From: Beijerinckiaceae bacterium
GTDB lineage: Bacteria; Pseudomonadota; Alphaproteobacteria; Rhizobiales; Beijerinckiaceae
DNA: 52,525 bases
Direction: 5' to 3'
Assembly: GCA_947474545.1 (NCBI GenBank)
Contig: CANJJI010000012.1
Span: forward strand, 1-52,525
Of this stretch, positions 4,604 through 45,425 are shown piece by piece. The notes below the pieces were generated by a model, which saw only the letters and a program-made list of their open reading frames with translations, was not told the origin of the DNA and did not search any database. The translations under genes were made by a program, and so were the position numbers. Positions within the stretch are counted from its first letter, which is position 1, and each line of letters begins with the position of its first letter.

Positions 4604-5347
4604 TCATTGTTTGCGAAGGGTCGACCAGTCGGCATGAAATATCAGCAGGTCTCCGGCGCGCATGACTTCGCCTTCGATTTCCACTGGCAGCGCGGTGTGA
4701 TCATATAGAACGGGTGGAGGCAAGGCGCCGTCCTTGTTGGCAAGAAGAAGAAAGCTTTGCCCTTCAATGGGGCTCTGCGCTGCAAAAATCGCAGGCTGGC
4801 GGCCGATAATGCAGAGGTTTGCACAGGCCTTGTGCGCGAGCCCAGTTCCGGGCCTCATACCACCGGGATAACATTTGCCATCGCATATCTCTCCGGCAAT
4901 TAGATACCGCCCAATCAGCACGGGGGCGCCAAACAAAGGTAAAGGCGCGGCGGCGGGCTGCACTTGCGATTCCTCATCAACGACAATCATGTCGAGTGTG
5001 CCGCGCTTCAAACCGAAGCCACGCAGTTCGACGACCCTGCCCTTTGCTTTATCCGCAATGTCCCCGGCGCCAATCTTCCCGCCACCGGCGACGAGCATTG
5101 TATGCCCTTGCGGGTCGGCAGCCGTGGGCAAGAGGCGCAAGACGGGATAGGGGAGATTGAACAATACACCGGTCGCGCGAATTTCGCCGCTGTAGCGGCC
5201 ATCCCCCCGGTCCTGCACACCCAGACCAAGCATCAGCGCCAGCACGAATGAACTCGCGAGCAAACCGACGATGACCTTGACCAGAAATCGCGACAATGCC
5301 GGCGGGACTTCCCCGTAGCCGGTGAAAAATTCAGGAGGGCTGCTCAT
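4604..5347 (-). CDS. Membrane-anchored protein with a conserved-looking four-Cys motif, function unknown
   Basis: A 247-residue protein with one N-terminal transmembrane helix (about residues 22-44) and a soluble remainder, probably periplasmic. Around the middle it has GEICDGKCYPGG followed by HKACANLC, that is C-x3-C-x16-C-x3-C. I have a general memory of similar motifs in uncharacterised proteins near Rieske oxidoreductases, but I cannot name a family. The Cys set could bind a metal or cluster, or form disulfides. Its start overlaps the stop of the ferric-reductase/Rieske gene by four bases (ATGA), implying coupled translation and a shared job, perhaps as an electron-transfer partner. Confidence 0.65.
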   Translation of the reverse strand: MSSPPEFFTGYGEVPPALSRFLVKVIVGLLASSFVLALMLGLGVQDRGDGRYSGEIRATGVLFNLPYPVLRLLPTAADPQGHTMLVAGGGKIGAGDIADKAKGRVVELRGFGLKRGTLDMIVVDEESQVQPAAAPLPLFGAPVLIGRYLIAGEICDGKCYPGGMRPGTGLAHKACANLCIIGRQPAIFAAQSPIEGQSFLLLANKDGALPPPVLYDHTALPVEIEGEVMRAGDLLIFHADWSTLRKQ

Positions 5348-6405
5348 GCGTCCACTCCCTTTATACGGACCGGCTCTACCGGAGTACCGGGCGCATTTGC
5401 ACGCGGGTCGATGAAAATAACACCATCCTGCAGCTTCAATCTGTAGGTCGAGAGTTTTTCTGTGAAGGGTGGCGGGGCGCAGCCGTCAGCAAGGCGATAT
5501 TGATAACCATGCCAGGGGCAGGTCAGCACGCCGTCGATGACACAGCCTTCACCGAGCGGACCGGCCTGATGAGCGCAGGCATTGTCCAGCGCATAGAGTT
5601 TGTCATCATGACGGAAGATGGCGGCGTTCTGTCCATCGGGCAGGCGCACCACCCTGCCGCGGTTGTCTGTGATTGCATTGACGGGACCCGCCGCGATCCA
5701 TTCCGCTGGCGCTGCATTTGTTGATGTTTCCAGAACATCCTTGTGTGTGGTCCAGGCGGCAGCCAGATGCAATCCGGTCACTGCACTCACACTGAACGCT
5801 GTTAAAATCGCCAACGCGGGATATTTTCCAGTTTGCAAGGCGCCAAAGGCAATATGCGCGACAATCAAACCATAGGCCGCATAGATCAGCATATGCAGCC
5901 CCTTCCAAAGCGCGGGCTTTAAAAAGGCCAGCCAGAAATCATGACTCGTGGCGGCCAGCAGACACATGATCGCCAAAGCGAGCAGACCGAAAATCTCGAA
6001 GGGAAATCCCGCCAGCTGAAAATAGCTCGTGTTGCTCGCCAGCAACGCTACATAGGGATCAATGTTGCTGTAGGCGAAATACCAGCCCAGCACATGCCAT
6101 GCATGCGCGAGCGCCACCGCGCAGGTGATCACCCCGAAATGCCGCCGGTTGTAGAGCAATGGCAGCCATCGTTTATCCAGCCGCGCCAGCGGGCCGATGC
6201 ACAGGACGAAGCTCAGCATCAAGAAGGCGCATGTGCCGAAGGCATGCATGCGCCTGATTGCATCGTCAACATCCACACCTGCTGGCTGCAGCATCGGGAC
6301 CAGACGGACAAAAGTAAGAATATAGATTCCCACCCATGCAATCAGGACTGCATCATAAATTAGTTTGGTGCGAAACCAGATGACCGGAACATAGCCCGCG
6401 CTCAT
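5344..6405 (-). CDS. Ferric-reductase-like membrane cytochrome fused to a C-terminal Rieske domain
   Basis: A 353-residue fusion. Residues about 15-215 hold five to six hydrophobic helices with internal His residues (for example HAWH and VAH), as in ferric-reductase-like/YedZ-type haem b membrane domains. Residues about 235-335 form a Rieske ferredoxin domain with C277-x-H279 and C296-x2-H299 as [2Fe-2S] ligands. The likely role is electron transfer between the membrane and a soluble or periplasmic acceptor. It sits between two very small membrane protein genes and the Cys-motif gene, with overlaps of a few bases. The direction of electron flow and the partner are unknown. Confidence 0.8.
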   Translation of the reverse strand: MSAGYVPVIWFRTKLIYDAVLIAWVGIYILTFVRLVPMLQPAGVDVDDAIRRMHAFGTCAFLMLSFVLCIGPLARLDKRWLPLLYNRRHFGVITCAVALAHAWHVLGWYFAYSNIDPYVALLASNTSYFQLAGFPFEIFGLLALAIMCLLAATSHDFWLAFLKPALWKGLHMLIYAAYGLIVAHIAFGALQTGKYPALAILTAFSVSAVTGLHLAAAWTTHKDVLETSTNAAPAEWIAAGPVNAITDNRGRVVRLPDGQNAAIFRHDDKLYALDNACAHQAGPLGEGCVIDGVLTCPWHGYQYRLADGCAPPPFTEKLSTYRLKLQDGVIFIDPRANAPGTPVEPVRIKGVDA

Positions 6406-6797: not shown

Positions 6798-8798
6798 TCA
6801 GACAAGTTCCGCATCGCTCATGATTTCTACCAGAGAGGGTCCAGGAAACGCCAGAGCTTCCAGCATCGCCGAATCAAGATCCTTCGCCTGATTTACGCGG
6901 ATGCCCTTGCCGCCGCATAGGCGCGCGAAGGCCGAAAAGCTGGGATTTTGCAGCGAGGTCTGCCACACTGGCCAGGCGCCGGCTTTCTGCTCCTTGGAAA
7001 TTTTGCCAAGTTCCGAATTGTTGAGCAGAATATGCGTGATGTTCATGCCATATTTAACCGCCGTGGTGAATTCAGCCATATATTGGCCAAAGCCGCCGTC
7101 GCCACTCACGGAAATCACCTTCCTGCCTGAATATTCCGCGAAGTCGCGGGTAGCAGCCCATGCGCCCATGGCGGCGGGGAAAGCAAAGCCGATCGAGCCG
7201 AGATAGCCGGACATCAGGATGCGCTGCTCCGCGCATTCGAAATAACGGCCGAAAGAATAGGTGTTATTGCCGACGTCCACGGCAATGACCGCATCCGCCG
7301 GAGCGCACCGGGTCAGCGCCGCGAAAATCGCCGCCGAGGAAACGCCGCGGCCCTGATCATCCGCAGCCCGGGATTCCTTTTCACGGCGCCAATCATTCAC
7401 GCGCTGCCTAAGCTCCGGCGCCTGATCGACCCAGCTGCCATGCCCGGACAATTTTTCAAGCATGGCCCGAACGGTGACGCCAATTTCGCCCCAGACCGGC
7501 AGCGTAACCGGGTGGAATTTGCCTAGCGCCATGCGCTCGAAATCGACCTGAATGATCGATTTGGACGGCTCAATGCCAGTGTGATTGGCAAAGGAACTGC
7601 CAAACGCCAGCAGCAGATCAGCTTCGTTCATGAACCAGCTCGCCACCGGGGTGCCTGACCGGCCCAGAACGCCAGCGGCAAGCGGATGCCGGTCGCTGAT
7701 TTGTCCCTTCGCCTTAAAGGTTGTGAGCACCGGCACGCCCAGCCGCCCGGCTAGGGCAATAATGTCGTCCATCGCACTGCGCGCGCCATAACCGGCGACA
7801 ATCACGGGCCGTCGCGCTGCGGCAATCATGCTGCAGGCCTGCAGCAAAACGTCAGGTGGCGGCGCTATGTCCGTGCCAGCCATCCGGCCGCGCGGGCTCG
7901 AAGGCGTCTGCTTTCCCGCTGGCAAAGTCTGGACATCGTCGGGAAAGATAAGATGCGCAACGTCGCGCTCCACAATAGCCGTCTTGAGGGCGAGATTGAT
8001 CAGTTCGGTGTGATTGGATGTATGCAGGACGGTCTGGCTGAAGCGCGCCACAGGCGCAAAGGCCGACGCAAGATCGATTTCCTGAAACGCTCCTGGCCCG
8101 AAAACCTGCACATTGACCTGACCCGTCAGCGCCAGGACAGGTGCGCGATCGACCTTGGCGTCAAACAGTCCAGTCAAAAGATTTGTCGCGCCCGGACCCG
8201 CAATCGACAGGCAGGCGGCCGGACGGCCTGACAATTTGGCATAGCCAGAACAGGCGAAGGACGCCGCGCCCTCGTGGCGCACGCCGACAAAGCTCATCTC
8301 GCCCGCCGCCTCGCGCGCCCGCAGCGCTTCGGCCAGCCCAAGATTGGAATGGCCCACCATTCCGAAAACACGCGAGACGCCCCAGGCCGTCATGGTTTGC
8401 GCCATGACGTCGCTGACCGTGGGGACGCGCGGCTTTTCGGGCTCCAGGCCAACGTAGACACCGTCCTCGCGCACCTCGACCGGGTACATCTTTTGACCCG
8501 TATCCTCGTGGCCGCCTGGCGGTAGCCCAGTGAGCGGGTCGAAATCCCAACCATGCCATGGGCACCGGAGCCAGCACCGTCCTTCGGGGCCAGCTTCAAT
8601 AGAACCCTCTCCGAGAGGCCCGCCCTGATGGGGACAGCGGTTATCCATCGCAGCGTACTGGCCACTGAAATGGATCAGCGCTAATTGACGCCCGCCTGCG
8701 GTGACGCTTGTCACCCGCCCCTCCGGCAATACTCCTGTGGCGAGCACGCGACGCCAATCCATATCTGGCACTGGAACGATAGGTTCAATTGGTTTCAT
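6798..8798 (-). CDS. Rieske [2Fe-2S] domain fused to a thiamine-diphosphate-dependent enzyme
   Basis: A 666-residue fusion. Residues about 10-118 form a Rieske ferredoxin with C55-x-H57 and C79-x2-H82. The rest is a full acetolactate-synthase/pyruvate-oxidase/benzoylformate-decarboxylase-type ThDP enzyme. The catalytic Glu is E176 (VRHEGAAS), the middle domain spans about 300-440, and the ThDP-Mg site is G566-D-G running to N593-N594. Known ThDP enzymes of this fold decarboxylate or ligate 2-oxoacids; I know no standard member with an N-terminal Rieske domain. The cluster might carry electrons from an oxidative decarboxylation (inference). It is the first gene of the minus-strand set that ends in ligAB, and is divergent from the other Rieske fusion at 8947. 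Confidence 0.85.
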   Translation of the reverse strand: MKPIEPIVPVPDMDWRRVLATGVLPEGRVTSVTAGGRQLALIHFSGQYAAMDNRCPHQGGPLGEGSIEAGPEGRCWLRCPWHGWDFDPLTGLPPGGHEDTGQKMYPVEVREDGVYVGLEPEKPRVPTVSDVMAQTMTAWGVSRVFGMVGHSNLGLAEALRAREAAGEMSFVGVRHEGAASFACSGYAKLSGRPAACLSIAGPGATNLLTGLFDAKVDRAPVLALTGQVNVQVFGPGAFQEIDLASAFAPVARFSQTVLHTSNHTELINLALKTAIVERDVAHLIFPDDVQTLPAGKQTPSSPRGRMAGTDIAPPPDVLLQACSMIAAARRPVIVAGYGARSAMDDIIALAGRLGVPVLTTFKAKGQISDRHPLAAGVLGRSGTPVASWFMNEADLLLAFGSSFANHTGIEPSKSIIQVDFERMALGKFHPVTLPVWGEIGVTVRAMLEKLSGHGSWVDQAPELRQRVNDWRREKESRAADDQGRGVSSAAIFAALTRCAPADAVIAVDVGNNTYSFGRYFECAEQRILMSGYLGSIGFAFPAAMGAWAATRDFAEYSGRKVISVSGDGGFGQYMAEFTTAVKYGMNITHILLNNSELGKISKEQKAGAWPVWQTSLQNPSFSAFARLCGGKGIRVNQAKDLDSAMLEALAFPGPSLVEIMSDAELV

Positions 8799-8946
8799 TG
8801 TGTTTTTCCTAGGTCAGGCCGTTGCCGTTGCCGTCCTTCCCCCATGATAAGGGCACAACCCGGCAAGTAGAATGTATTCACTGAAAAGTTTATGTAACTT
8901 GTACATGCGATATGTTTGTAACAATGCGCCAACGGACAGGTTCAAA
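8799..8946. promoter_or_regulatory. Divergent regulatory region with two dyads
   Basis: This 148-base region separates two divergent Rieske-fusion genes. Two dyad-symmetric sites are visible: ATGTAACTTGTACAT at 8892-8906 (ATGTA/TACAT arms) and TTGTAACAA at 8916-8924 (TTGT/ACAA arms). They lie 22-55 bases upstream of the chosen start at 8947. Their spacing and symmetry resemble operators of small dimeric repressors such as GntR or MarR members, but no such regulator is in the window. No clear sigma-70 promoter was picked out. Confidence 0.4.
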
Positions 8947-10560
8947 ATGCACAAGATCGCCATTGCTGACTGGAACACGCTCGCTGATCGCAAGCCCGCC
9001 TATGCGCTGGCCGCCAATGTCGACCTTGTGGTGATCCGGTACGACGATCAAGTCTCCGTGCTCTATGGCCGCTGCCTGCATCGCGGCGCGCTTTTGTCGG
9101 ATGGCCATATAGACGGACACAATCTTATCTGCGGCGTACACGACTGGGATTACCGCTATGACACTGGCGTGAGCGAATACGCCAACAAGGAAGTGCTGCA
9201 CAAATTCTCCGGCTGGGTTGAGGGCGGAAAAGTCCTTGTCGACGAAGATGAAATCGCCGCCTGGGAGAAGAAATACCCGCAGCCCTACAGACGCGATGAC
9301 TATCTCGGGCTTTATGCCGAAACCCACGCCGATCCCGTCGAACCTCTGGTGCATCCGATCCAGTCCTATGCGCGCAATGGCCTGACGAAAACCGGCCACC
9401 ATGGCGCTGTCGCCGCCATGGGCGTGCCGCGCGGCGAATTACCCGAATGGAGCGATATCCAGTTTGTGACGGCGCAATTGCACAAGGCTCCATTACTTGA
9501 CGATCATCCCGTCGGCACGGATGTCGTAATTGGACCCAATGCGCAAAAGCCGCTGCGGTTGAAAATCCCGCTGTTTGTCTCCGACATGAGTTTCGGCTCC
9601 CTTTCGGCCTCCGCGAAGGTCGCGCTGGCGCGCGGCGCCGAGCTTTCCGGTACCGGCATTTGTTCGGGCGAGGGCGGCATGCTGGCTGCAGAGCAGGAGG
9701 CCAACAGCCGTTATTTCTATGAGCTGGCCTCGGCGCGATTTGGTTTTTCCTGGGACAAGGTGGAACGCGTACAGGCGTTTCACTTCAAGGGCGGACAGGG
9801 CGCCAAGACCGGCACAGGCGGCCATCTTCCGGGCCACAAGGTGTCGGCGGAAATCGCCGCCGTTCGCGGATTGAACCCGGGACAGGACGCCATTTCCCCT
9901 GCCCGCTTTCCGGACTGGACCGAGCCGCGCCACATGCGCGAATTCGCCCATGAAGTCCGCGCATGCACCGGCGGCATCCCCATCGGCTACAAGCTTTCGG
10001 CGCAACATATCGAAAAAGACATCGATGCGGCGCTCGAAGTCACATGCGACTACATCATTCTGGATGGCCGTGGGGGCGGTACGGGCGCCGCACCGCTGCT
10101 GTTCCGCGACAATATTTCCGTGCCGACCATCCCCGCACTGGCCCGCGCCAGACGCCATCTCGACCGTGCCGGGCGCAAGGACGTGACTCTCATCATTACA
10201 GGCGGCTTGCGCAGCGCAGAGGATTTCGCCAAGGCCATGGCCATGGGCGCGGATGCGGTGGCGGTCTCCAATTCAGCGCTGCAAGCCATCGGCTGCCTGG
10301 GCATGCGCGCCTGCCACACCAACAATTGCCCCGTGGGGATAGCCACGCAGAAGCCGGAGCTTGTTTCCCGGCTTGTGGTCGAAAAATCCGCGCGGCAATT
10401 GCATAATTTCTTCGAGGCAAGCGTGGAGCTGATGCAGGTTATGGCGCGCGCCTGCGGCCATTCGCATCTCAATCAGTTTAACGCAGATGATCTCGTGACC
10501 TGGAAATACGACATGCACCGCCTCAGCGGGGTGGCATATGCGGGAGTTGTGGGGGCGTAA
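8947..10560 (+). CDS. Rieske domain fused to a glutamate-synthase-type FMN domain
   Basis: A 537-residue fusion. The N-terminal Rieske domain has C43-x-H45 and C62-x2-H65. From about residue 130 it is a glutamate-synthase-like FMN barrel (PF01645 type), with SDMSFGSLSASAK, the KGGQGAKTGTGGHLPG block and DGRGGGTGA. Near the C-terminus C450-x5-C456-x4-C461 matches the 3Fe-4S cysteines of glutamate synthase large subunits. Stand-alone proteins with this domain are thought to be FMN oxidoreductases, and some make glutamate or N-methylglutamate with partners. The Rieske domain is an added electron entry point. The longest frame reaches 8872, but the ATG at 8947 has a GGACAGG six bases upstream and begins the Rieske fold. 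Its substrate is unknown. Confidence 0.85.
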   Translation: MHKIAIADWNTLADRKPAYALAANVDLVVIRYDDQVSVLYGRCLHRGALLSDGHIDGHNLICGVHDWDYRYDTGVSEYANKEVLHKFSGWVEGGKVLVDEDEIAAWEKKYPQPYRRDDYLGLYAETHADPVEPLVHPIQSYARNGLTKTGHHGAVAAMGVPRGELPEWSDIQFVTAQLHKAPLLDDHPVGTDVVIGPNAQKPLRLKIPLFVSDMSFGSLSASAKVALARGAELSGTGICSGEGGMLAAEQEANSRYFYELASARFGFSWDKVERVQAFHFKGGQGAKTGTGGHLPGHKVSAEIAAVRGLNPGQDAISPARFPDWTEPRHMREFAHEVRACTGGIPIGYKLSAQHIEKDIDAALEVTCDYIILDGRGGGTGAAPLLFRDNISVPTIPALARARRHLDRAGRKDVTLIITGGLRSAEDFAKAMAMGADAVAVSNSALQAIGCLGMRACHTNNCPVGIATQKPELVSRLVVEKSARQLHNFFEASVELMQVMARACGHSHLNQFNADDLVTWKYDMHRLSGVAYAGVVGA

Positions 10561-37368: not shown

Positions 37369-37389
37369 TAAGGACAATTGGGGTTCGTC

Positions 37390-38373
37390 ATGACGCTCCG
37401 AAAGCTGCTGAGCAAATTCCATTTTCCCGCGATCGTTCTTGCCTTGATTTGTAGCTGGGGCGCATTTGCGCGCGAATTCAGGGCTGCTGACAATCAGGTT
37501 GCCGATTATCCGACCGTTCAGGCTATTGAACATATGAACAAGCTACTCGTTGAGCGCACAGGTGGACGGCACAGCGTGAAAGTCTTCCACTCGGCGCAAT
37601 TGGGCGAGGAAGACGAGACCATTGCCCAGACCCGCTCAGGCGCCATCGACATTAACCGGATCAATGCCGCGCCCCTGACGCAACTGGTGCCCGATCTCGG
37701 GGTTCTGACGATTCCATTCCTTTTCAAATCCATCGACCACCAGCATCGGGTTCTCGACGGACAGGTGGGAGAGGAAATTCTGGCGCGACTGGAAAGTTAT
37801 GGCTTTGTAGGTCTTGCATTTTACGATTCCGGCGCACGCTCGCTTTATACGACCACACCGGTCCGCTCGCTGGTAGATCTGAAAAGCCTGCGTATTCGTG
37901 TTCAGCAATCTGAATTGGCGGAAAAAATGGTGCGGGCCATGGGTGCAACGCCGGTGGTCATTTCCTATGGTCAGGTGTTGACCAGCCTGACTTCAAAGCT
38001 TGTTGACGGCGCCGAGAACAATTGGCCTTCCTACGTCACGACCAATCATTTCAAGGCCGCCAAATATTATATTCTGACCGAGCATACGATGGCGCCGGAG
38101 CTGCTTCTCATGTCCAAGCCGGCATGGGATTCCCTTGACGTGGCGGATCGCCGGATTGTCAAGATAGCGGCAATGGATTCTGCGATGTATATGCGTACAC
38201 AATGGCAGGCATGGGAAGAACGTTCCCGGCAACTTGCCATCAGCGAGGGGATCACTGTTGTCAGCGAGTTCGACCGCCAGCCTTTTGTCGATGCCATGGC
38301 CTCTATTCATACAGCTGCGGAAGCGGATCCACGTATCGGACGGATGATGAAACTTATTCGCGAGGTGCCTTGA
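37390..38373 (+). CDS. TRAP-type periplasmic binding protein (DctP family), signalling operon
   Basis: A 327-residue DctP-family receptor with a Sec signal peptide ending near AFAREF (about residue 27). Family features are RSGAIDINRINAAPLTQL, the PFLFKSIDHQHRVLDG segment and LRIRVQQSE with R170 at the position of the carboxylate-binding Arg of SiaP-type proteins. It keeps the DGAENNW element. No TRAP membrane proteins (DctQ/M) are in the window. It is the first gene of a run that continues three bases later with a histidine kinase, so it likely reports a ligand to that kinase rather than (or as well as) feeding transport. The start is the ATG at 37390; the frame opens four codons earlier. Confidence 0.82.
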   Translation: MTLRKLLSKFHFPAIVLALICSWGAFAREFRAADNQVADYPTVQAIEHMNKLLVERTGGRHSVKVFHSAQLGEEDETIAQTRSGAIDINRINAAPLTQLVPDLGVLTIPFLFKSIDHQHRVLDGQVGEEILARLESYGFVGLAFYDSGARSLYTTTPVRSLVDLKSLRIRVQQSELAEKMVRAMGATPVVISYGQVLTSLTSKLVDGAENNWPSYVTTNHFKAAKYYILTEHTMAPELLLMSKPAWDSLDVADRRIVKIAAMDSAMYMRTQWQAWEERSRQLAISEGITVVSEFDRQPFVDAMASIHTAAEADPRIGRMMKLIREVP

Positions 38374-38376
38374 ACG

Positions 38377-40413
38377 ATGAGCGATGACGTCAGCGGAAGC
38401 AACCGGAGCGATCCGGGCATGTTCGGGCTTGGGAGCCTGTTGCGTAAGCTGCCGATACGCTGGCGTATACTTTCCATTGCCGCGTTGAATACAGCTGTGG
38501 TGTTGCTTCTTACGTTGCTGATCCTGGACGGCGCCAACCAGCTTAGAAATGCCTGGGGTGAACTGATTCAAGTACGGCGGTCCGAACAATTGCTGAGCGC
38601 AATCGAAACCGAATCAGGCAGGCTGCAAAGCCTTATCCATCGATATTTCACCCAACCCGCGCCCGATGTGCTCGAAGAAATCGAGCGCCGGCGGCGCGCC
38701 CTGACAGGTATGCTCACCACCAGCGGCAACATCGATCCATCGCTGGCTGAACCGGTGAAGCAGCTCGCCACGAATACAGAACGGCTGGTCGCGGGCTTTG
38801 ATGATTTGCGGAAAGCGCGCGTTGAAATTTCGGAGACTTACGAGAACCAGGTTCTGAAGACGGCGCGCGAAATTTCCGGCCTCTATTCCATCATCGAAAG
38901 TACGCTTCTTGGAACCGACGCGCTGGTCAAACCGCCGCTGGGCCGTTCACGTGAAGCCTTTTCAGCGTCACTTGTCGCCGCCAATGCCTATTATCTTTCT
39001 CATTCGGCCAATGCTGCACAGGAAGCGTTCAACGGGCTCGACATGATCGAGCGTACCTTACCGGTCATGCTGGATCTTGCCGCAAATGATCTTCAACGCG
39101 CGGCGCTGGGCGCCTTGCGGCAGCGCATCTCGGAATTCCGCGCGAGCATGCAGAAGCTGACCGAGCTGTTCGACCACCAGGCAATTCTTTTACGTGACAG
39201 CGTTGATCGCAGCCAGGCCGAGATGACAGCGACGACAACAGCGCTCACCGAACGGATCCGCAAGACCGAGGCGCAGGTTCAGGGGCGCTTGAACACCGCG
39301 CTGAACGACGTCTATGCGAAGATCGCTGTCATCGCTATTGCGTTTCTGGCGATAATTGCCCTGTTCGGCACGGCTATCGCACGCACTGTAAGCCTGCCGT
39401 TGACCGACATGATGAATTCCATGCGTGCGATTGTGCGCGGCAAGCTCGATGCAAAGGTTCAAGGCGGGGATGCACGCGATGAATTGGGCGCGATGGCGCG
39501 GGCCATCGAAGTGTTCCGTCAGAATGCAATTGCCAAACTGCGCGCGGAGGGCGAACTGCGGGCCGCCAAGGAAAGCGCCGAATCCACGCTCACCAATTTG
39601 CGCGAGGCGCAAAAAAGCCTGATCGAAGCGGAGAAACTGGCTGCGCTCGGGGGGCTTGTCGCCGGGGTCGCGCATGAGGTGAATAATCCGGTGGGCATCA
39701 GTTTGACGGTCGCCTCGACATTGGCCCGCCGGTGCGAAGATTTTGCGCGCGAACTGACGTCGGGAGATCTGAGGCGCTCGCGCCTGACGGAATTTGTGGA
39801 ATCCACCAGAGACGCATCGCAACAATTGACAATGAACCTGCATCGCGCGGGCGAGTTGATACAATCGTTCAAACAAGTGGCCGTTGATCGCAGCCATGCG
39901 GAAAAACGAAAATTCGATTTACGGGAAGCGACAGAACAGATCGTCGCGAGCCTGCGTCCCGGCCTGGCAACCAAGCAGCTCAAACTCGTCCTTGATTTCG
40001 CCCCCGGCATTGAAATGGATTCTTATCCCGGCCCTTATGGGCAGGTGCTGACGAACCTGTTCATCAATTCTGTGACGCACGGATTTCGTGATGGTCGCGA
40101 AGGCTCGATTGAAATCAGGACCATGCCCCGCGGGCCGAATAATGTATTGATCGATTATTCGGACAATGGAGCGGGAATGTCCGAAGATGTGCGCGCGCAT
40201 GCCTTCGATCCATTCTTTACAACGCTGCGCGGCCAGGGGGGAACCGGCCTTGGCCTCCACATTGTTTACAACATTATCACGCAGAAGCTTGGCGGAAAAA
40301 TTGAACTCAGAAGCAGTGAAAGCGGCGGTACGCGTTTCCTTATCACCTTGCCGCGTGTGGTAAAGGACGATGCGCCGGACGAAGCTCAAAGCAAGATCTC
40401 AGCGAAAGGTTGA
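38377..40413 (+). CDS. Membrane sensor histidine kinase with large periplasmic helical domain and HAMP
   Basis: A 678-residue sensor kinase. One helix is at about residues 29-52 and another at about 313-335; between them lie about 260 mostly helical residues facing the periplasm. HAMP (about 335-390) and a coiled coil lead to the H-box VAGVAHEVNNP with H433. The ATPase domain has DNGAGMSED and GTGLGLHIV. The helical periplasmic domain is of a kind that in TorS and LuxQ docks a binding protein; here the genes for three such proteins are in the same run. It starts three bases after the TRAP protein gene; the next gene starts two bases after its stop. Its own ligand is unknown. Confidence 0.88.
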   Translation: MSDDVSGSNRSDPGMFGLGSLLRKLPIRWRILSIAALNTAVVLLLTLLILDGANQLRNAWGELIQVRRSEQLLSAIETESGRLQSLIHRYFTQPAPDVLEEIERRRRALTGMLTTSGNIDPSLAEPVKQLATNTERLVAGFDDLRKARVEISETYENQVLKTAREISGLYSIIESTLLGTDALVKPPLGRSREAFSASLVAANAYYLSHSANAAQEAFNGLDMIERTLPVMLDLAANDLQRAALGALRQRISEFRASMQKLTELFDHQAILLRDSVDRSQAEMTATTTALTERIRKTEAQVQGRLNTALNDVYAKIAVIAIAFLAIIALFGTAIARTVSLPLTDMMNSMRAIVRGKLDAKVQGGDARDELGAMARAIEVFRQNAIAKLRAEGELRAAKESAESTLTNLREAQKSLIEAEKLAALGGLVAGVAHEVNNPVGISLTVASTLARRCEDFARELTSGDLRRSRLTEFVESTRDASQQLTMNLHRAGELIQSFKQVAVDRSHAEKRKFDLREATEQIVASLRPGLATKQLKLVLDFAPGIEMDSYPGPYGQVLTNLFINSVTHGFRDGREGSIEIRTMPRGPNNVLIDYSDNGAGMSEDVRAHAFDPFFTTLRGQGGTGLGLHIVYNIITQKLGGKIELRSSESGGTRFLITLPRVVKDDAPDEAQSKISAKG

Positions 40414-40415
40414 AG

Positions 40416-42167
40416 ATGGCCGATTCTGATGATGTGATCCTGTTTTCCGATGAGGATGGGCCTGCGCCTCGCCCTGACAAGACTTGGAAAGTCGCGATTA
40501 TCGACGACGATCCTGCAGTGCATGAGGGAACCAGATATGCGCTTTACGACTACAGGCTGCTGAACCAGGGCATCGAACTGTTGTCAGCCTTCTCCGCAAA
40601 GGAGGGGCGCGCGCTGATGCAGGCCAACCCCGATATCGCGGTCGTCTTGCTGGACGTCGTAATGGAATCGGAATCGGCAGGGCTCGACCTCGTCACCGTT
40701 ATCCGAAAGCAGCTCAAGAATGACATGGTCCGAATCATATTGCGGACTGGCCAACCCGGACAGGCGCCCGAACGCAGCGTTATCGTCGACTACGATATCA
40801 ATGACTATAAGGCCAAGACCGAATTGACGGCAGACCGGCTGTTCACGGCAATCACCGCAGCGCTGCGGAGCTATCAGCAATTACAGAAAATGGCCGAGAC
40901 CCGGCGAGGCCTGGAAATCATTGTTGACGCCGCCTCGACCCTGTTTGATTTCAAATCGATGCAGAAGCTTGCAGAAGGCGTTCTGACACAGCTTTCCTCG
41001 CTTCTGGCCGCCGATTGCATGGGAATGCTGGTCTTGCGGGATGAAAATCAGCAACCCCAAGGCTTTTCGATTCTGGCGGCATCGGGATGTTACAGCAAGT
41101 CCGCGGCGGCGACGGCGCCGGAACGGCTGGACGAGGATGTCCGTGCACTCATTCAACGCGCTTTCCAGCGCCGGCTGACAGAATTCAGCGACAGCAGATC
41201 TGTTGTTTATATCAGTACGTCCGGAGGCAGCGAAGTCATCGTCGTGCTTGAAGTCAAGAAGACGTTGTCAGAGACGGATCGCGCCCTGGTGGAGATATTT
41301 TGCGGGCGGTTGTCGACCGCCTTCGATAACGTCGTGCTTTACGAGCAATTGCAGACAGCCAATAGTTCGCTTGAGCGCCGTGTCGCGCAACGGACACGCG
41401 AGCTGACCATGGCGAATGCCCGTTTGCAGGCTCAATGGCTGCGCGCCCGGCGCGCCAACGCATTCCAGAGCGAAGTTTTGGGAATGGTGGCGCACGACAT
41501 CCGCAATCCACTCGGAGTGATCCTCGGGCGAACTGAAATCGTTAATGAACTGCTTGCCAAGCCGCAGCACAATGTCGACTTATTGTCGGCGCAGATCACC
41601 CATATAAGGGATAGTGCGCAGCGTCTCACGGGCATGGTCACGGAGCTGATTTCCAGCGCCATGACTGACGACGATGATATCAGTCTGCGTTGCGAAGATG
41701 TAGACATCGGCACGCTTGCGCGTGACGTGGTGGAAGCCAACCGCCCACTTTCAGACCGCAAATCCCAGACCATGACGGTGAAGGCTGACACCGGATTGAT
41801 TGTGAATTGTGATATCGACCGGATGCGGGATGCATTCGATAACCTTATCAGCAATGCGATCAAATACAGCGTACCGGGAGGAAGTATCGAAGTGGAAATT
41901 TCGGGCGAAGGCAGCGAAGCCGTGCTGCGCGTACGCGACAGCGGACCCGGCCTCCTGCCCGACGACAAGACGCGGCTCTTTGGCCGCTTTCAACGCCTTT
42001 CAGCTCAGCCGACAGGCGGAGAACCGTCTACTGGACTTGGGTTGGCGATCGCAAAGCGGATCGTCGATTTGCATGCGGGCGCCATCAGCGCTGAATCGGC
42101 CGGACCTGGCCGCGGATCGACATTCTCGATCAAACTCAAGATAGCAAATTCCGGTATGGCGAAATGA
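40416..42167 (+). CDS. Hybrid protein: receiver - DUF3369 - histidine kinase
   Basis: A 583-residue soluble protein. Residues about 25-150 are a receiver with acidic pocket DDD (about residues 31-33) and phosphoacceptor D80 (LLDVVM). DUF3369 covers about 170-310. A coiled coil then leads to a HisKA domain with H360 (GMVAHDIRNP) and an ATPase domain (ending in GLGLAIAKRIVDL). A receiver at the front and a kinase at the back suits an intermediate step of a phosphorelay. It begins two bases after the kinase stop; a TTG at 40410 is a weaker alternative. The next gene overlaps by four bases. No membrane segment is seen. Confidence 0.88.
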   Translation: MADSDDVILFSDEDGPAPRPDKTWKVAIIDDDPAVHEGTRYALYDYRLLNQGIELLSAFSAKEGRALMQANPDIAVVLLDVVMESESAGLDLVTVIRKQLKNDMVRIILRTGQPGQAPERSVIVDYDINDYKAKTELTADRLFTAITAALRSYQQLQKMAETRRGLEIIVDAASTLFDFKSMQKLAEGVLTQLSSLLAADCMGMLVLRDENQQPQGFSILAASGCYSKSAAATAPERLDEDVRALIQRAFQRRLTEFSDSRSVVYISTSGGSEVIVVLEVKKTLSETDRALVEIFCGRLSTAFDNVVLYEQLQTANSSLERRVAQRTRELTMANARLQAQWLRARRANAFQSEVLGMVAHDIRNPLGVILGRTEIVNELLAKPQHNVDLLSAQITHIRDSAQRLTGMVTELISSAMTDDDDISLRCEDVDIGTLARDVVEANRPLSDRKSQTMTVKADTGLIVNCDIDRMRDAFDNLISNAIKYSVPGGSIEVEISGEGSEAVLRVRDSGPGLLPDDKTRLFGRFQRLSAQPTGGEPSTGLGLAIAKRIVDLHAGAISAESAGPGRGSTFSIKLKIANSGMAK

Positions 42168-43081
42168 GCGAAGTTCAGCATATTTTTGTGGTCGATGATG
42201 AAGCAGACGCCCGCGACATGGTGGGCGATTATTTGCGGATGCATGGGTTCAACGTAACACTCTGCAATGGCGGTTCGCAACTGCGCGAAGAGTTACGCAA
42301 GAAAACGCCTGATCTGATTGTGCTTGATCTTAACATGCCAGAAGAAGACGGCCTGTCGATCACGAGGTTCCTGAAAGAACAATATCGAATTCCCGTAATC
42401 ATGTTGACCGCGAGCGCCAGCACCATAGACCGGGTCGTGGGCCTCGAACTCGGCGCTGACGACTACCTCGCAAAACCTTGTGAATTGCGGGAGCTCCTCG
42501 CGCGGATACGGTCGGTCCTACGGCGTCTTAAATTTTCGCCGGCCCGTGTCGCAGAACGGCGGCTTGCCTCCATCGTCTCTTTTGATTTTGTCGGCTTCAG
42601 CCGATTTATCCAGGAAGATGAAACAGCAACTCTTGCAGCGCTCGACGCCATTTTCGGCGAAATCATAACGCCGAGCCTTTTGCAGTATCGCGGCACGCTT
42701 TTCAAAATGCTTGGCGACGGCGCGCTGGTGGACTTCGCCAGCGTCGTAGATTCTGTTGAGTGGGCTGTGTGGTTCCAAACCACAATGACGCCGCATCCGC
42801 GCACTGTGCTCCCGTTTGGCAAGATTGTGTTTCGTGTAGGCATAGCCGTGGGCGACGTGGTCCTGAACCAGAATGATCGTGCCGGAGAAGGCGTGACGCT
42901 GGCGGTGCGCGTACAGGAAACTGCAACCCCCGGCGCAGTTTCGATTTCCGACCAGGCCTATCAATTCGTTCGTGGCCGGACTTCGGTGCGCTTCAATGAC
43001 GGCGGTGAACGCCAGCTCAAGAACATCATCACGCCGATGCGCGTCTGGATATGGGCTCCACCCGGAGACGAGCGGCCATGA
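42164..43081 (+). CDS. Response regulator with class III adenylate/guanylate cyclase output
   Basis: A 305-residue protein. The receiver (about residues 5-122) has phosphoacceptor D55 (VLDLNMPEED) and Lys in the KP motif. The cyclase domain (about 132-300) has metal ligands D141 (FDFVGFS) and D185 (KMLGDG), K181 and D238 in the purine-recognition positions, and R249 in the transition-state position. The normal transition-state Asn is Thr (T245). It probably makes cAMP or cGMP on phosphorylation, though with an altered active site. It overlaps both neighbours by four bases (ATGA). There is no DNA-binding domain. Confidence 0.88.
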   Translation: MSEVQHIFVVDDEADARDMVGDYLRMHGFNVTLCNGGSQLREELRKKTPDLIVLDLNMPEEDGLSITRFLKEQYRIPVIMLTASASTIDRVVGLELGADDYLAKPCELRELLARIRSVLRRLKFSPARVAERRLASIVSFDFVGFSRFIQEDETATLAALDAIFGEIITPSLLQYRGTLFKMLGDGALVDFASVVDSVEWAVWFQTTMTPHPRTVLPFGKIVFRVGIAVGDVVLNQNDRAGEGVTLAVRVQETATPGAVSISDQAYQFVRGRTSVRFNDGGERQLKNIITPMRVWIWAPPGDERP

Positions 43082-44415
43082 CACATTCTGCTCCACACTA
43101 TGCGAAGTCCTGTCTCACAGGCGCATTTCTGACTGTATTGTTGTGGACGGGCCTGCACCCGGCCATGGCGGCGACGGAGATACATTGGTGGCATGCGATG
43201 ACGGATGCCAACAAGAATGCCGTGGAGGAAATAGCCCGCAGCTTCAATGCTTCGCAGACTGAATTTGTCATAGTGCCCACGGCAAAAGGTTCCTATCCCC
43301 AGACGATGAATGCGGGACTTGCCGCCTTCGAGAAAGGCGATGCGCCCCATATCCTGCAGGTTGTTGAAGTGGGCACGGCCACGATGATGAATGCCCAGGG
43401 CGCTATCAAACCCGTGCACGAATTGATGCGCGACGCTAACCAGTATTTTGACCCAAAGAGCTATTTACCGGCCATTACCGGATATTATTCGACGGCGAAT
43501 GGCGAGATGTTGTCTTTTCCGTTTAACTCGTCTTCCGCAGTCATGTGGCTGAATGAGGATGTTCTCGCACGCGCCGGCCTCGAAAAAGCTCCACTCGAGA
43601 GATGGCATCAGGTGTTTGACGCGGCGCGGAAGTTACAGGCCAGTTTCAGTCCCGGTTGCGGATTTTCAACGGCGTGGCTTACCTGGATCATGGTCGAGCA
43701 ATTCTCGGCCTGGCATAATATTCCCATTGCGACAAAGGTGAATGGCATTGATGGTCTGGACACTGTGTTGCAAACGAATTCTCCGCTCCACATAAAACAT
43801 ATCGAACAACTCGTGGAACTACAGAAATCCAGAATCTTTGACTATTCCGGTCGCAATGATGAGGGCGAAAACCGGTTTGTCTCCGGCGAATGTCCCATTC
43901 TCATGAGTTCCTCCGGCTTTTATGGAAAAGTGAAGGCGCTTGCGAAATTCAAGTTTCGTTCAACGCCAATGCCCTATTATCCCGATGTGACCGGGGCGCC
44001 GCAAAATTCGCTCATTGGTGGCGCTTCGCTCTGGGTGATGCGGGGAAAAACACCACATGAATATAAAGGCGTCGCGAGGTTCTTCGCCTTCGTGTCCGGG
44101 ACTGAACGCCAGGCATGGCTTCATCAGCAGCTGGGTTATCTGCCGGTGACACGGGCCGCCTATGAAACCACCAAGGCGTCAAACTTTTACCGGGCGAACC
44201 CATTTCATGAAGTGCCGCTGTTATCGCTGACGCAAAAGCCGCCAACGGAAAACTCACGCGGCGTGCGCCTGGGCGATATGGTTGATCTGCGGAACATATG
44301 GGCTGAAGAAATCGAGGCTGCCCTGGAACGCCGAAAAACGGCGCAAGCGGCAATGGACGAAGCAGTAAGACGGGGCAACGAGGTCTTGCGCGCCTTTGAA
44401 AGAAGGGCCGACTGA
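43078..44415 (+). CDS. ABC-type glycerol-3-phosphate/sugar binding protein (UgpB-like)
   Basis: A 445-residue family 1 binding protein. The Sec signal peptide ends around AMAATEIHWWHAM; this WWHAM motif and the SYPQTMNAGLAAFEKGDAPHI stretch resemble UgpB. UgpB binds sn-glycerol-3-phosphate or glycerophosphodiesters in the periplasm. Here no Ugp permeases follow; instead the gene lies inside the signalling run, between the cyclase and a second TRAP-type protein, overlapping both (ATGA, TGATG). A Lys/Arg-rich C-terminal tail is present. Which ligand it senses is unknown. Confidence 0.85.
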   Translation: MTHSAPHYAKSCLTGAFLTVLLWTGLHPAMAATEIHWWHAMTDANKNAVEEIARSFNASQTEFVIVPTAKGSYPQTMNAGLAAFEKGDAPHILQVVEVGTATMMNAQGAIKPVHELMRDANQYFDPKSYLPAITGYYSTANGEMLSFPFNSSSAVMWLNEDVLARAGLEKAPLERWHQVFDAARKLQASFSPGCGFSTAWLTWIMVEQFSAWHNIPIATKVNGIDGLDTVLQTNSPLHIKHIEQLVELQKSRIFDYSGRNDEGENRFVSGECPILMSSSGFYGKVKALAKFKFRSTPMPYYPDVTGAPQNSLIGGASLWVMRGKTPHEYKGVARFFAFVSGTERQAWLHQQLGYLPVTRAAYETTKASNFYRANPFHEVPLLSLTQKPPTENSRGVRLGDMVDLRNIWAEEIEAALERRKTAQAAMDEAVRRGNEVLRAFERRAD

Positions 44416-45425
44416 TGCGGCCAGGCTCCATTGATCGCAGAGCATTTTTGCAGCAGGCCGTTGTCGCACTGACAACAGCGGCTCCGGGCGGAATGTTATC
44501 AGGGCAAGCAATGGCTGCTGCCCGCCAATTGCGGGCTGGCGATATCAGGGACGTAGATTATCCGACTGTTCAGGCGTTGTCATTTATTGACCGGACAATG
44601 CGGCGGGCGACAGGTTCCAGCACGCGCGTGCGTATATTCGCCAATGCCCAATTGGGCGACGAACGCGAAGTCCTGGAGCAACTGCGCTTGGGAATTGTCG
44701 ATATGGCGCGTGTCCATGTTGCGCCGCTGTCGAATCTGCTGCCGGAACTTGGCGCATTGATGACGCCATTTATTTTCAAGTCGGATACACATCTGCAAAA
44801 TGTTATCGACGGGTCACTGGGCCGGGATATGCTCGAAGCACTGCGCCCCGCAGGTTTTGTTGGTCTGACATTTCTGGATGCGGGTCCCCGTTATATCTAC
44901 AATCGCATTCGCCCGGTTCATACCGCCGCCGATCTTGCAGGTTTGCGTCTGAATTGCGAACAGTCTTCACTTAGCTGGGACATATTGACGGCGCTATCGG
45001 CGCTGCCCATGCAATTGCCGGTGAGCCATATATTGCCCGCGTTGAATGCAGGATTGGCGGACGGGGCTCTGGACAATATAGCCAGCTATGTCAGCCTCGG
45101 ACATCATGCGGCGGCAAAGCATATTACATTTATAGATCTTGATCGTTCACCGGACGTGATATTGATATCACTCAAGGCGTGGGACAATCTCGATGATGCC
45201 GATCGCAAGACACTGTTCAGCGCGGCGCAGGAGGCGCGCTATTTCATGCGCCCGATATTCGACCGTTGGGTCAGATTGTCTACCGGGCAGGGAGAAGAAC
45301 AGGGCGTAAATATCGTGCGACAACCAAATGAGGGCTCGTTCCACAGCGCCTTTGCACCCCTCATCGGGAAGCTCGAAAGCGGCCCCGCAAGGCGCTGGAT
45401 CAGAGACATCCGCGCCTTGCAATAA
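44415..45425 (+). CDS. TRAP-type binding protein with Tat-like signal and altered ligand pocket
   Basis: A 336-residue DctP-family protein related to the one at 37390 (shared DYPTVQA, AQLGDE and GFVGLTFLDAG). The N-terminus has a twin-arginine signature DRRAFLQ and a hydrophobic stretch, so it may be exported folded by Tat. The conserved carboxylate Arg is replaced: LRLNC has N180 where the paralogue has R170. DGAENNW becomes DGALDNI. Its ligand pocket has therefore diverged, or it binds no carboxylate. Its start overlaps the UgpB-like stop (TGATG). It closes the operon. Confidence 0.82.
   Translation: MRPGSIDRRAFLQQAVVALTTAAPGGMLSGQAMAAARQLRAGDIRDVDYPTVQALSFIDRTMRRATGSSTRVRIFANAQLGDEREVLEQLRLGIVDMARVHVAPLSNLLPELGALMTPFIFKSDTHLQNVIDGSLGRDMLEALRPAGFVGLTFLDAGPRYIYNRIRPVHTAADLAGLRLNCEQSSLSWDILTALSALPMQLPVSHILPALNAGLADGALDNIASYVSLGHHAAAKHITFIDLDRSPDVILISLKAWDNLDDADRKTLFSAAQEARYFMRPIFDRWVRLSTGQGEEQGVNIVRQPNEGSFHSAFAPLIGKLESGPARRWIRDIRALQ

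Follow-up and report, generated by a model that had tools for sequence, protein, structure and literature searches.

A six-gene operon of a Beijerinckiaceae bacterium that probably couples orphan binding proteins to a kinase cascade

The locus described here, a six-gene operon at positions 37390-45425 in DNA of a Beijerinckiaceae bacterium (assembly GCA_947474545.1, contig CANJJI010000012.1), is closest in kind to known systems in which a binding protein is coupled to a kinase. The window denotes below the whole stretch of 52,525 nt that was analysed. In TorT/TorS/TorR, a periplasmic binding protein is encoded beside a membrane kinase whose sensor domain is long and helical, and with the chemoreceptors Trg, Tar and Tap one receptor serves several binding proteins. 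For BctC/BctE of Bordetella, two reports (PMC5812351, PMC9602780) describe a carboxylate-binding protein that stimulates a sensor kinase, with BctC also serving the BctBA transporter.

The operon shares with TorT/TorS the location of binding protein genes beside a kinase gene and, in most relatives, an OmpR-type regulator. It differs in its use of the DctP and UgpB families, in the number of binding proteins, in an extra receiver-DUF3369-kinase, in the cyclase output found in the window's family, and in a sensor fold nearer to that of McpS. As in BctC/BctE, a binding protein may feed a sensor kinase; unlike BctC, the binding proteins here have no linked permease, and UgpB is without UgpA in the genome. 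The operon departs from the chemoreceptors in that its signal would run through a histidine-kinase phosphorelay and in that no transporter accompanies its binding proteins. Its UgpB has all nine ligand contacts, like that of the importer UgpBAEC, but UgpA is missing and the gene lies in a kinase operon. We consider it likely that the operon specifies a phosphorelay with interchangeable orphan solute-binding proteins as inputs, analogous to TorT/TorS. A signalling role of UgpB and of TRAP1, the first of two proteins of the TRAP (tripartite ATP-independent periplasmic) type, is well supported: they are linked to the kinases, their pockets are retained, a permease is missing and recruitment took place more than once. 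What sets the operon apart from known systems is that it has more than one orphan binding protein, that UgpB was recruited twice and that the output was exchanged; no published description of the operon was recognised in listings of the open-licence literature.

Operon layout and linkage across genomes

The six open reading frames all lie on the + strand, with neighbours separated by a 3-base gap or overlapping by 1-4 bases, and none of the six encodes a permease. A first-pass annotation of the window had described six genes in one direction within three bases of each other or overlapping, with no permease beside the binding proteins; the coordinates agree with this, and profile scans agree with the family names it gave to all six products. 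The features are as follows.

37390..38373, + strand: TRAP1, binding protein of the DctP (TRAP) family (252.8 bits); ATG start, with a TTG at 37378
38377..40413, + strand: kinase 1, membrane sensor histidine kinase, phospho-acceptor His433 by sequence
38530..39312, + strand: sensor domain of kinase 1, predicted helical and periplasmic, residues ~52-312, limits estimated
40410..42167, + strand: kinase 2, receiver-DUF3369-histidine kinase; TTG start, with an ATG at 40416
40851..41351, + strand: DUF3369 domain of kinase 2, predicted GAF fold
42164..43081, + strand: response regulator, receiver (Asp55) and class III cyclase-like output domain
43078..44415, + strand: UgpB, orphan glycerol-phosphate binding protein, 9/9 ligand contacts
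44415..45425, + strand: TRAP2, second DctP-family protein (155 bits), with a leader judged by eye to resemble those of twin-arginine translocation

Linkage was assessed with a profile of the sensor (A1; ten kinase 1 sequences, 359 columns, gap-free). Matches were found in at least 43 of 397 genomes of an order-level sample, at least 2 of 385 of a class-level sample and at least 11 of 398 of a phylum-level sample, all of them in one order; the best five candidates per genome were scored (the best 11 in a search of near relatives), and absences are to be read as lower bounds. Plasmids gave no match. Neighbourhoods were compared in the 43 genomes with a match of at least 123 bits. Left out of the counts were the kinase-domain relatives L049, L050 and L052, loci L198-L201 (family f44, 72-79 bits), which have no such cluster, genomes G331 and G374 (also f44), and G058, G071 and G077 from the near-relative search. 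A search for related loci gave, among L053-L061 as scanned, a single close relative (L053, the locus of genome G019), the other matches reflecting kinase-domain similarity.

In all 43 genomes the DUF3369 kinase comes after kinase 1, and the regulator is next in 42, being divergent in G073. An intact TRAP1 gene lies directly upstream of kinase 1 in 31 of the 43 and could not be judged in G057, where the contig ends. The eleven genomes without it are G039, five of family f28, G073 with a truncated copy, G252 and G229 with decayed ones, and G410 and G294, which have none apart from a weak match over 30 residues in G410. TRAP1 linkage is seen in families f1, f20, f28 and f36. No permease was noted next to these genes in the neighbourhoods compared. 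A linked UgpB gene is present in 20 of the 43. In five of these, all of genus g1, that of the window, it is an operon gene downstream of the kinases; in the fifteen others, of family f36, it lies upstream in divergent orientation. The two binding proteins also occur apart, TRAP1 without linked UgpB in 12/12 f20 genomes and linked UgpB with TRAP1 gone or decayed in four f36 genomes. The arrangement is found again in further genomes and families and so is not a product of chance, and the linkage sought on the basis of the first-pass annotation is indeed conserved within one order. Remnants of TRAP1 were located at L178:7848-8155 (G252) and L184:1790-2078 (G229), with the kinases and linked UgpB retained. 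A gene of the APH-type phosphotransferase family follows linked UgpB in the two f36 genomes checked (L046:5167-6246 and L178:5270-6220, both - strand).

The strongest evidence comes from UgpB. The window's protein matches the equivalog model NF008211 with 477 bits (cut-off 411). Residues contacting glycerol-1- and glycerol-3-phosphate are given for UgpB in PMC12718374, and nine of them were mapped via the 9lff chain. All nine are retained in 20/20 linked UgpBs, including the window's copy, as they are in E. coli UgpB and 16 of 20 transporter UgpBs; the other four transporter copies, which are divergent, do not have the full set. A search of the own genome for UgpA, which did not extend to UgpE, brought up just two matches, with 23 and 26% identity, and none at 1e-30. 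Across the 43 genomes, a UgpA-like protein (at least 40% identity) is present in 36 and UgpB in 41; G057 and G073 have neither. UgpB without a UgpA-like permease is thus confined to the five g1 genomes (completeness 96, 100, 93, 99 and 73%), in which the operon copy is the sole UgpB. In the twenty ugp regions fetched, UgpB, UgpA and UgpE occur together.

Output of the response regulator

The regulator matches the profiles Response_reg and Guanylate_cyc (25.7 bits, cut-off 21.9), and its output domain is related to that of 3mr7, the nearest solved relative (E 1e-30). A winged helix takes the place of the cyclase in 36 of the 43 genomes, as called by BLAST to one regulator with a checked Pfam Trans_reg_C match; the remaining seven, all in the window's family, have the cyclase. 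The switch from DNA binding to cyclase requires one change on a quick kinase tree, in which the f1 clade has a support of 93 and is not starred, and for which TRAP1 was coded by hand (G073 absent, G039 and G057 unknown). The cyclase is a derived output of the unit. The own genome yielded no other cyclase of this kind.

Whether this domain makes a cyclic nucleotide is less clear. Asp141, Lys181, Asp185 and Arg249 are kept in 7/7 family members. Thr245, also present in 7/7, occupies the site of the transition-state Asn that in 3mr7 belongs to the usual catalytic motif. An alternative that comes close to an even chance is a catalytically dead cyclase whose output is nucleotide binding or protein binding; the Thr speaks for it, and the retention of both metal-binding Asp residues, the Lys and the Arg speaks against it. 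Ma1120, another match, also is without Asn there in the alignment, and this cyclase is reportedly active. The first-pass annotation had proposed a cyclic-nucleotide output for the operon. Its recognition of a cyclase-family domain stands; the output is less well supported than proposed, given the DNA-binding domain in 36/43 genomes and the Thr at the catalytic Asn, and is possible and uncertain.

Ligands, origin and surroundings of the binding proteins

In the UgpB tree, the g1 copies are nested among transporter copies (100/99) and the f36 copies form a separate clade (100/100); a single origin of the linked UgpBs is rejected (approximately unbiased test, p-AU 3e-5), and on the kinase tree linked UgpB needs two changes. 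Two origins imply either that the linkage arose twice or that g1 replaced an older linked UgpB, and either amounts to two recruitments. In the window's genus, which is without UgpA, the Ugp importer would have been the source of UgpB. It is unlikely that linked UgpB is ancestral and that this genus exchanged an f36-like copy for a transporter-derived one. Two UgpB types do stand beside the same kinase, and loss elsewhere is possible; against this, in genome G060 of the window's family no UgpB is linked and the ugpBAE set is intact, none of the 12 f20 genomes has a linked copy, and the two changes suffice. Such a replacement, improbable as it is, would still leave two recruitments.

TRAP1 has among its close solved relatives Bpro_3107 (4mhf; E 7.5e-81), which according to PMC7660916 binds D-glucuronate and D-galacturonate and for which two Arg and one Asn are named there. 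The corresponding triad, Arg150, Arg170 and Asn210 in STM3169 numbering as well as in the window's protein, was located with sequence motifs and with a 4mhf alignment that did not include STM3169 itself. By motif it is present in 32/32 TRAP1 rows longer than 200 residues; shorter rows were dropped, namely TRAP2 of G019 (contig end), the truncated TRAP1 of G073 and one DctP of the own genome. The DctPs at ten loci of the own genome left two rows long enough, both without the Arg150 and Asn210 motifs. TRAP1 is a probable hexuronate receptor, as judged from these residues. TRAP2 is 37% identical to TRAP1 and has Arg, Asn180 and Asp220 at the triad sites, two of the three being changed; in TRAP2 of G003 and G030 both Arg are present and Glu replaces Asn. 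Given its altered pocket, TRAP2 probably responds to a different ligand or plays an auxiliary part.

Further binding proteins occupy the same surroundings in other genomes. A gene for a PotD/PotF-like protein lies ~90 bases after the cyclase regulator in G060 (L044:4516-5724, - strand); in G030, TRAP2 is followed at a distance of 128 bases by a gene for a TctC protein (L042:1421-2416, - strand). It is tempting to speculate that one kinase cascade reads unrelated nutrients through modular orphan binding proteins, with UgpB captured independently at least twice, in one case from an importer since lost, and the output swapped, although we give this broader view somewhat less than an even chance. 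The ligands of such a hub, put forward just as tentatively, might be hexuronate, glycerol phosphate and perhaps polyamine and carboxylate, read by modules gained, exchanged and lost.

Upstream of the operon, on the opposite strand, are genes which we take to be rpmH, rnpA and yidC, followed farther upstream by GTPase and amino-acid kinase genes; aldolase-II, FAA-hydrolase and cupin genes lie downstream, also on the opposite strand. Nothing on either flank resembles a transporter for hexuronate or glycerol-phosphate ligands. No Rfam matches or tRNAs were found, and promoter and terminator scans gave results no better than chance.

Elsewhere in the window, a TctC-type binding protein gene (1265-2287, + strand) adjoins a luciferase-like monooxygenase gene (28-1191, - strand). 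Three Rieske fusions are neighbours: a ferric-reductase-like membrane part with a C-terminal Rieske domain (5344-6405, - strand), a full thiamine pyrophosphate-dependent (acetolactate-synthase-like) enzyme with an N-terminal one (6798-8798, - strand), and a glutamate-synthase domain with an N-terminal one (8872-10560, + strand).

Weighing the phosphorelay

Several observations weigh against a phosphorelay fed by orphan binding proteins. The unit is patchy, a match to the whole kinase being found in at least 15 of 101 near relatives. The binding proteins are not always linked to the kinases, since in G039 a TRAP protein lies downstream of the kinases with none upstream, and since in the five f28 genomes (G268, G087, G195, G307 and G354) neither TRAP1 nor UgpB was found around the kinase pair in the fetched stretch. 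The linked UgpBs give no sign of having lost a permease contact in common, the changed positions shared by g1 and f36 numbering 0 (expected 0.34). For three DctM genes of the own genome, which lie on contigs C32, C282 and C31, the contig carries no DctP. The best structural match of the sensor is McpS, a protein to which small acids bind with no binding protein in between, and chains of the unrelated helical protein TTYH outscore TorS.

The comparison of UgpBs used 118 columns invariant in 18 transporter copies, of which five (43, 81, 85, 173 and 357) are changed in all five g1 copies and eight in at least 14 of the 15 f36 copies. Position 43 falls in a loop aligned to MalE residues near 16, the known contact of MalE in that loop being 13/14. 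A lost permease contact in linked UgpBs is a post hoc idea and was not used as evidence.

The DctM genes bear on a further explanation, in which the binding proteins feed unlinked permeases, the kinases only regulate uptake and the neighbourhood reflects co-regulation. There are 14 DctM matches in the own genome, none on the window's contig, and because three are without a same-contig DctP, a permease partner for TRAP1 or TRAP2 is still conceivable. This explanation is nevertheless improbable: the search that finds no UgpA in the own genome beyond the two matches given above finds it in 36 of 43 genomes, and no DctM was seen beside TRAP1 in the neighbourhoods read, where no DctM profile search was made. 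Dedicated permeases elsewhere in the genome, which the first-pass annotation had named as counter-evidence, are thus lacking for UgpB as far as UgpA is concerned, and may exist for the TRAP proteins. As a test of the latter, the permease search was set aside: DctM genes occur in all 39 genomes searched, and such abundance neither supports nor refutes.

Kinase 1 matches HAMP and HATPase_c, with HisKA below threshold (21.9 bits, cut-off 26.9), and its residues 26-384 form a gap-free alignment across 10 relatives. Its sensor region gave no Pfam match in family scans, including the McpS-type helical bimodular domain. In an AlphaFold2 model (mean predicted local distance difference test score 84, predicted template modelling score 0.62) the region is all helical, as anticipated earlier for a periplasmic domain of ~260 residues. 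The McpS entries matched (Foldseek E 4e-5, Z 18.3) are those with succinate or malate. The TorS-TorT structures 3o1h, 3o1i and 3o1j are also among the matches (TorS: E 8e-3, Z 14.8, root-mean-square deviation 3.1 over 223 aligned residues), with TTYH reaching Z 16.5. That kinase 1 senses small acids directly through an McpS/TorS-like domain, the binding proteins being passengers or scavengers, agrees with the McpS match and is also improbable, as binding proteins from several protein families have joined the same cluster, more than once, and TRAP1 is linked in f1, f20, f28 and f36.

The phosphorelay with binding proteins as inputs remains our preferred reading. The multi-ligand sensor first envisaged for the operon holds as regards the orphan set, its linkage, the helical sensor and the absence of UgpA; its cyclic-nucleotide output is weaker, and the sensor is nearer to McpS. 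Kinase 2 matches DUF3369, HisKA and HATPase_c, with Response_reg just below threshold (29.4 vs 30.2), and has receiver Asp82 and His362 by sequence. The leading rows of a structure search with DUF3369 are GAF domains (Z 14-15), including that of cGMP phosphodiesterase, and a GAF fold is predicted.

The following course of events may be proposed. In the periplasm, TRAP1 would take hexuronate and UgpB glycerol-3-phosphate or glycerol-1-phosphate, as their contact residues suggest. The loaded proteins would dock on the helical sensor of kinase 1, an idea based on linkage, fold and transporter loss and on analogy with TorT/TorS. Kinase 1 would then pass phosphate to the receiver of kinase 2, both having the residues required and the direction of transfer being presumed, and kinase 2 would phosphorylate the response regulator. 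In most relatives the regulator would bind DNA; in the window's family the cyclase, if active, which is uncertain, would shift the level of a cyclic nucleotide. The ligands so reported are probably hexuronates and glycerol phosphate.

The unit can serve as a natural experiment in the conversion of transport proteins into receptors, one kinase having gained UgpB twice, once in a genus without UgpA. It provides predicted ligands, hexuronates and glycerol phosphates, for an uncharacterised kinase family seen in one order, and a matched pair of outputs, DNA binding and cyclase, behind one input stage.

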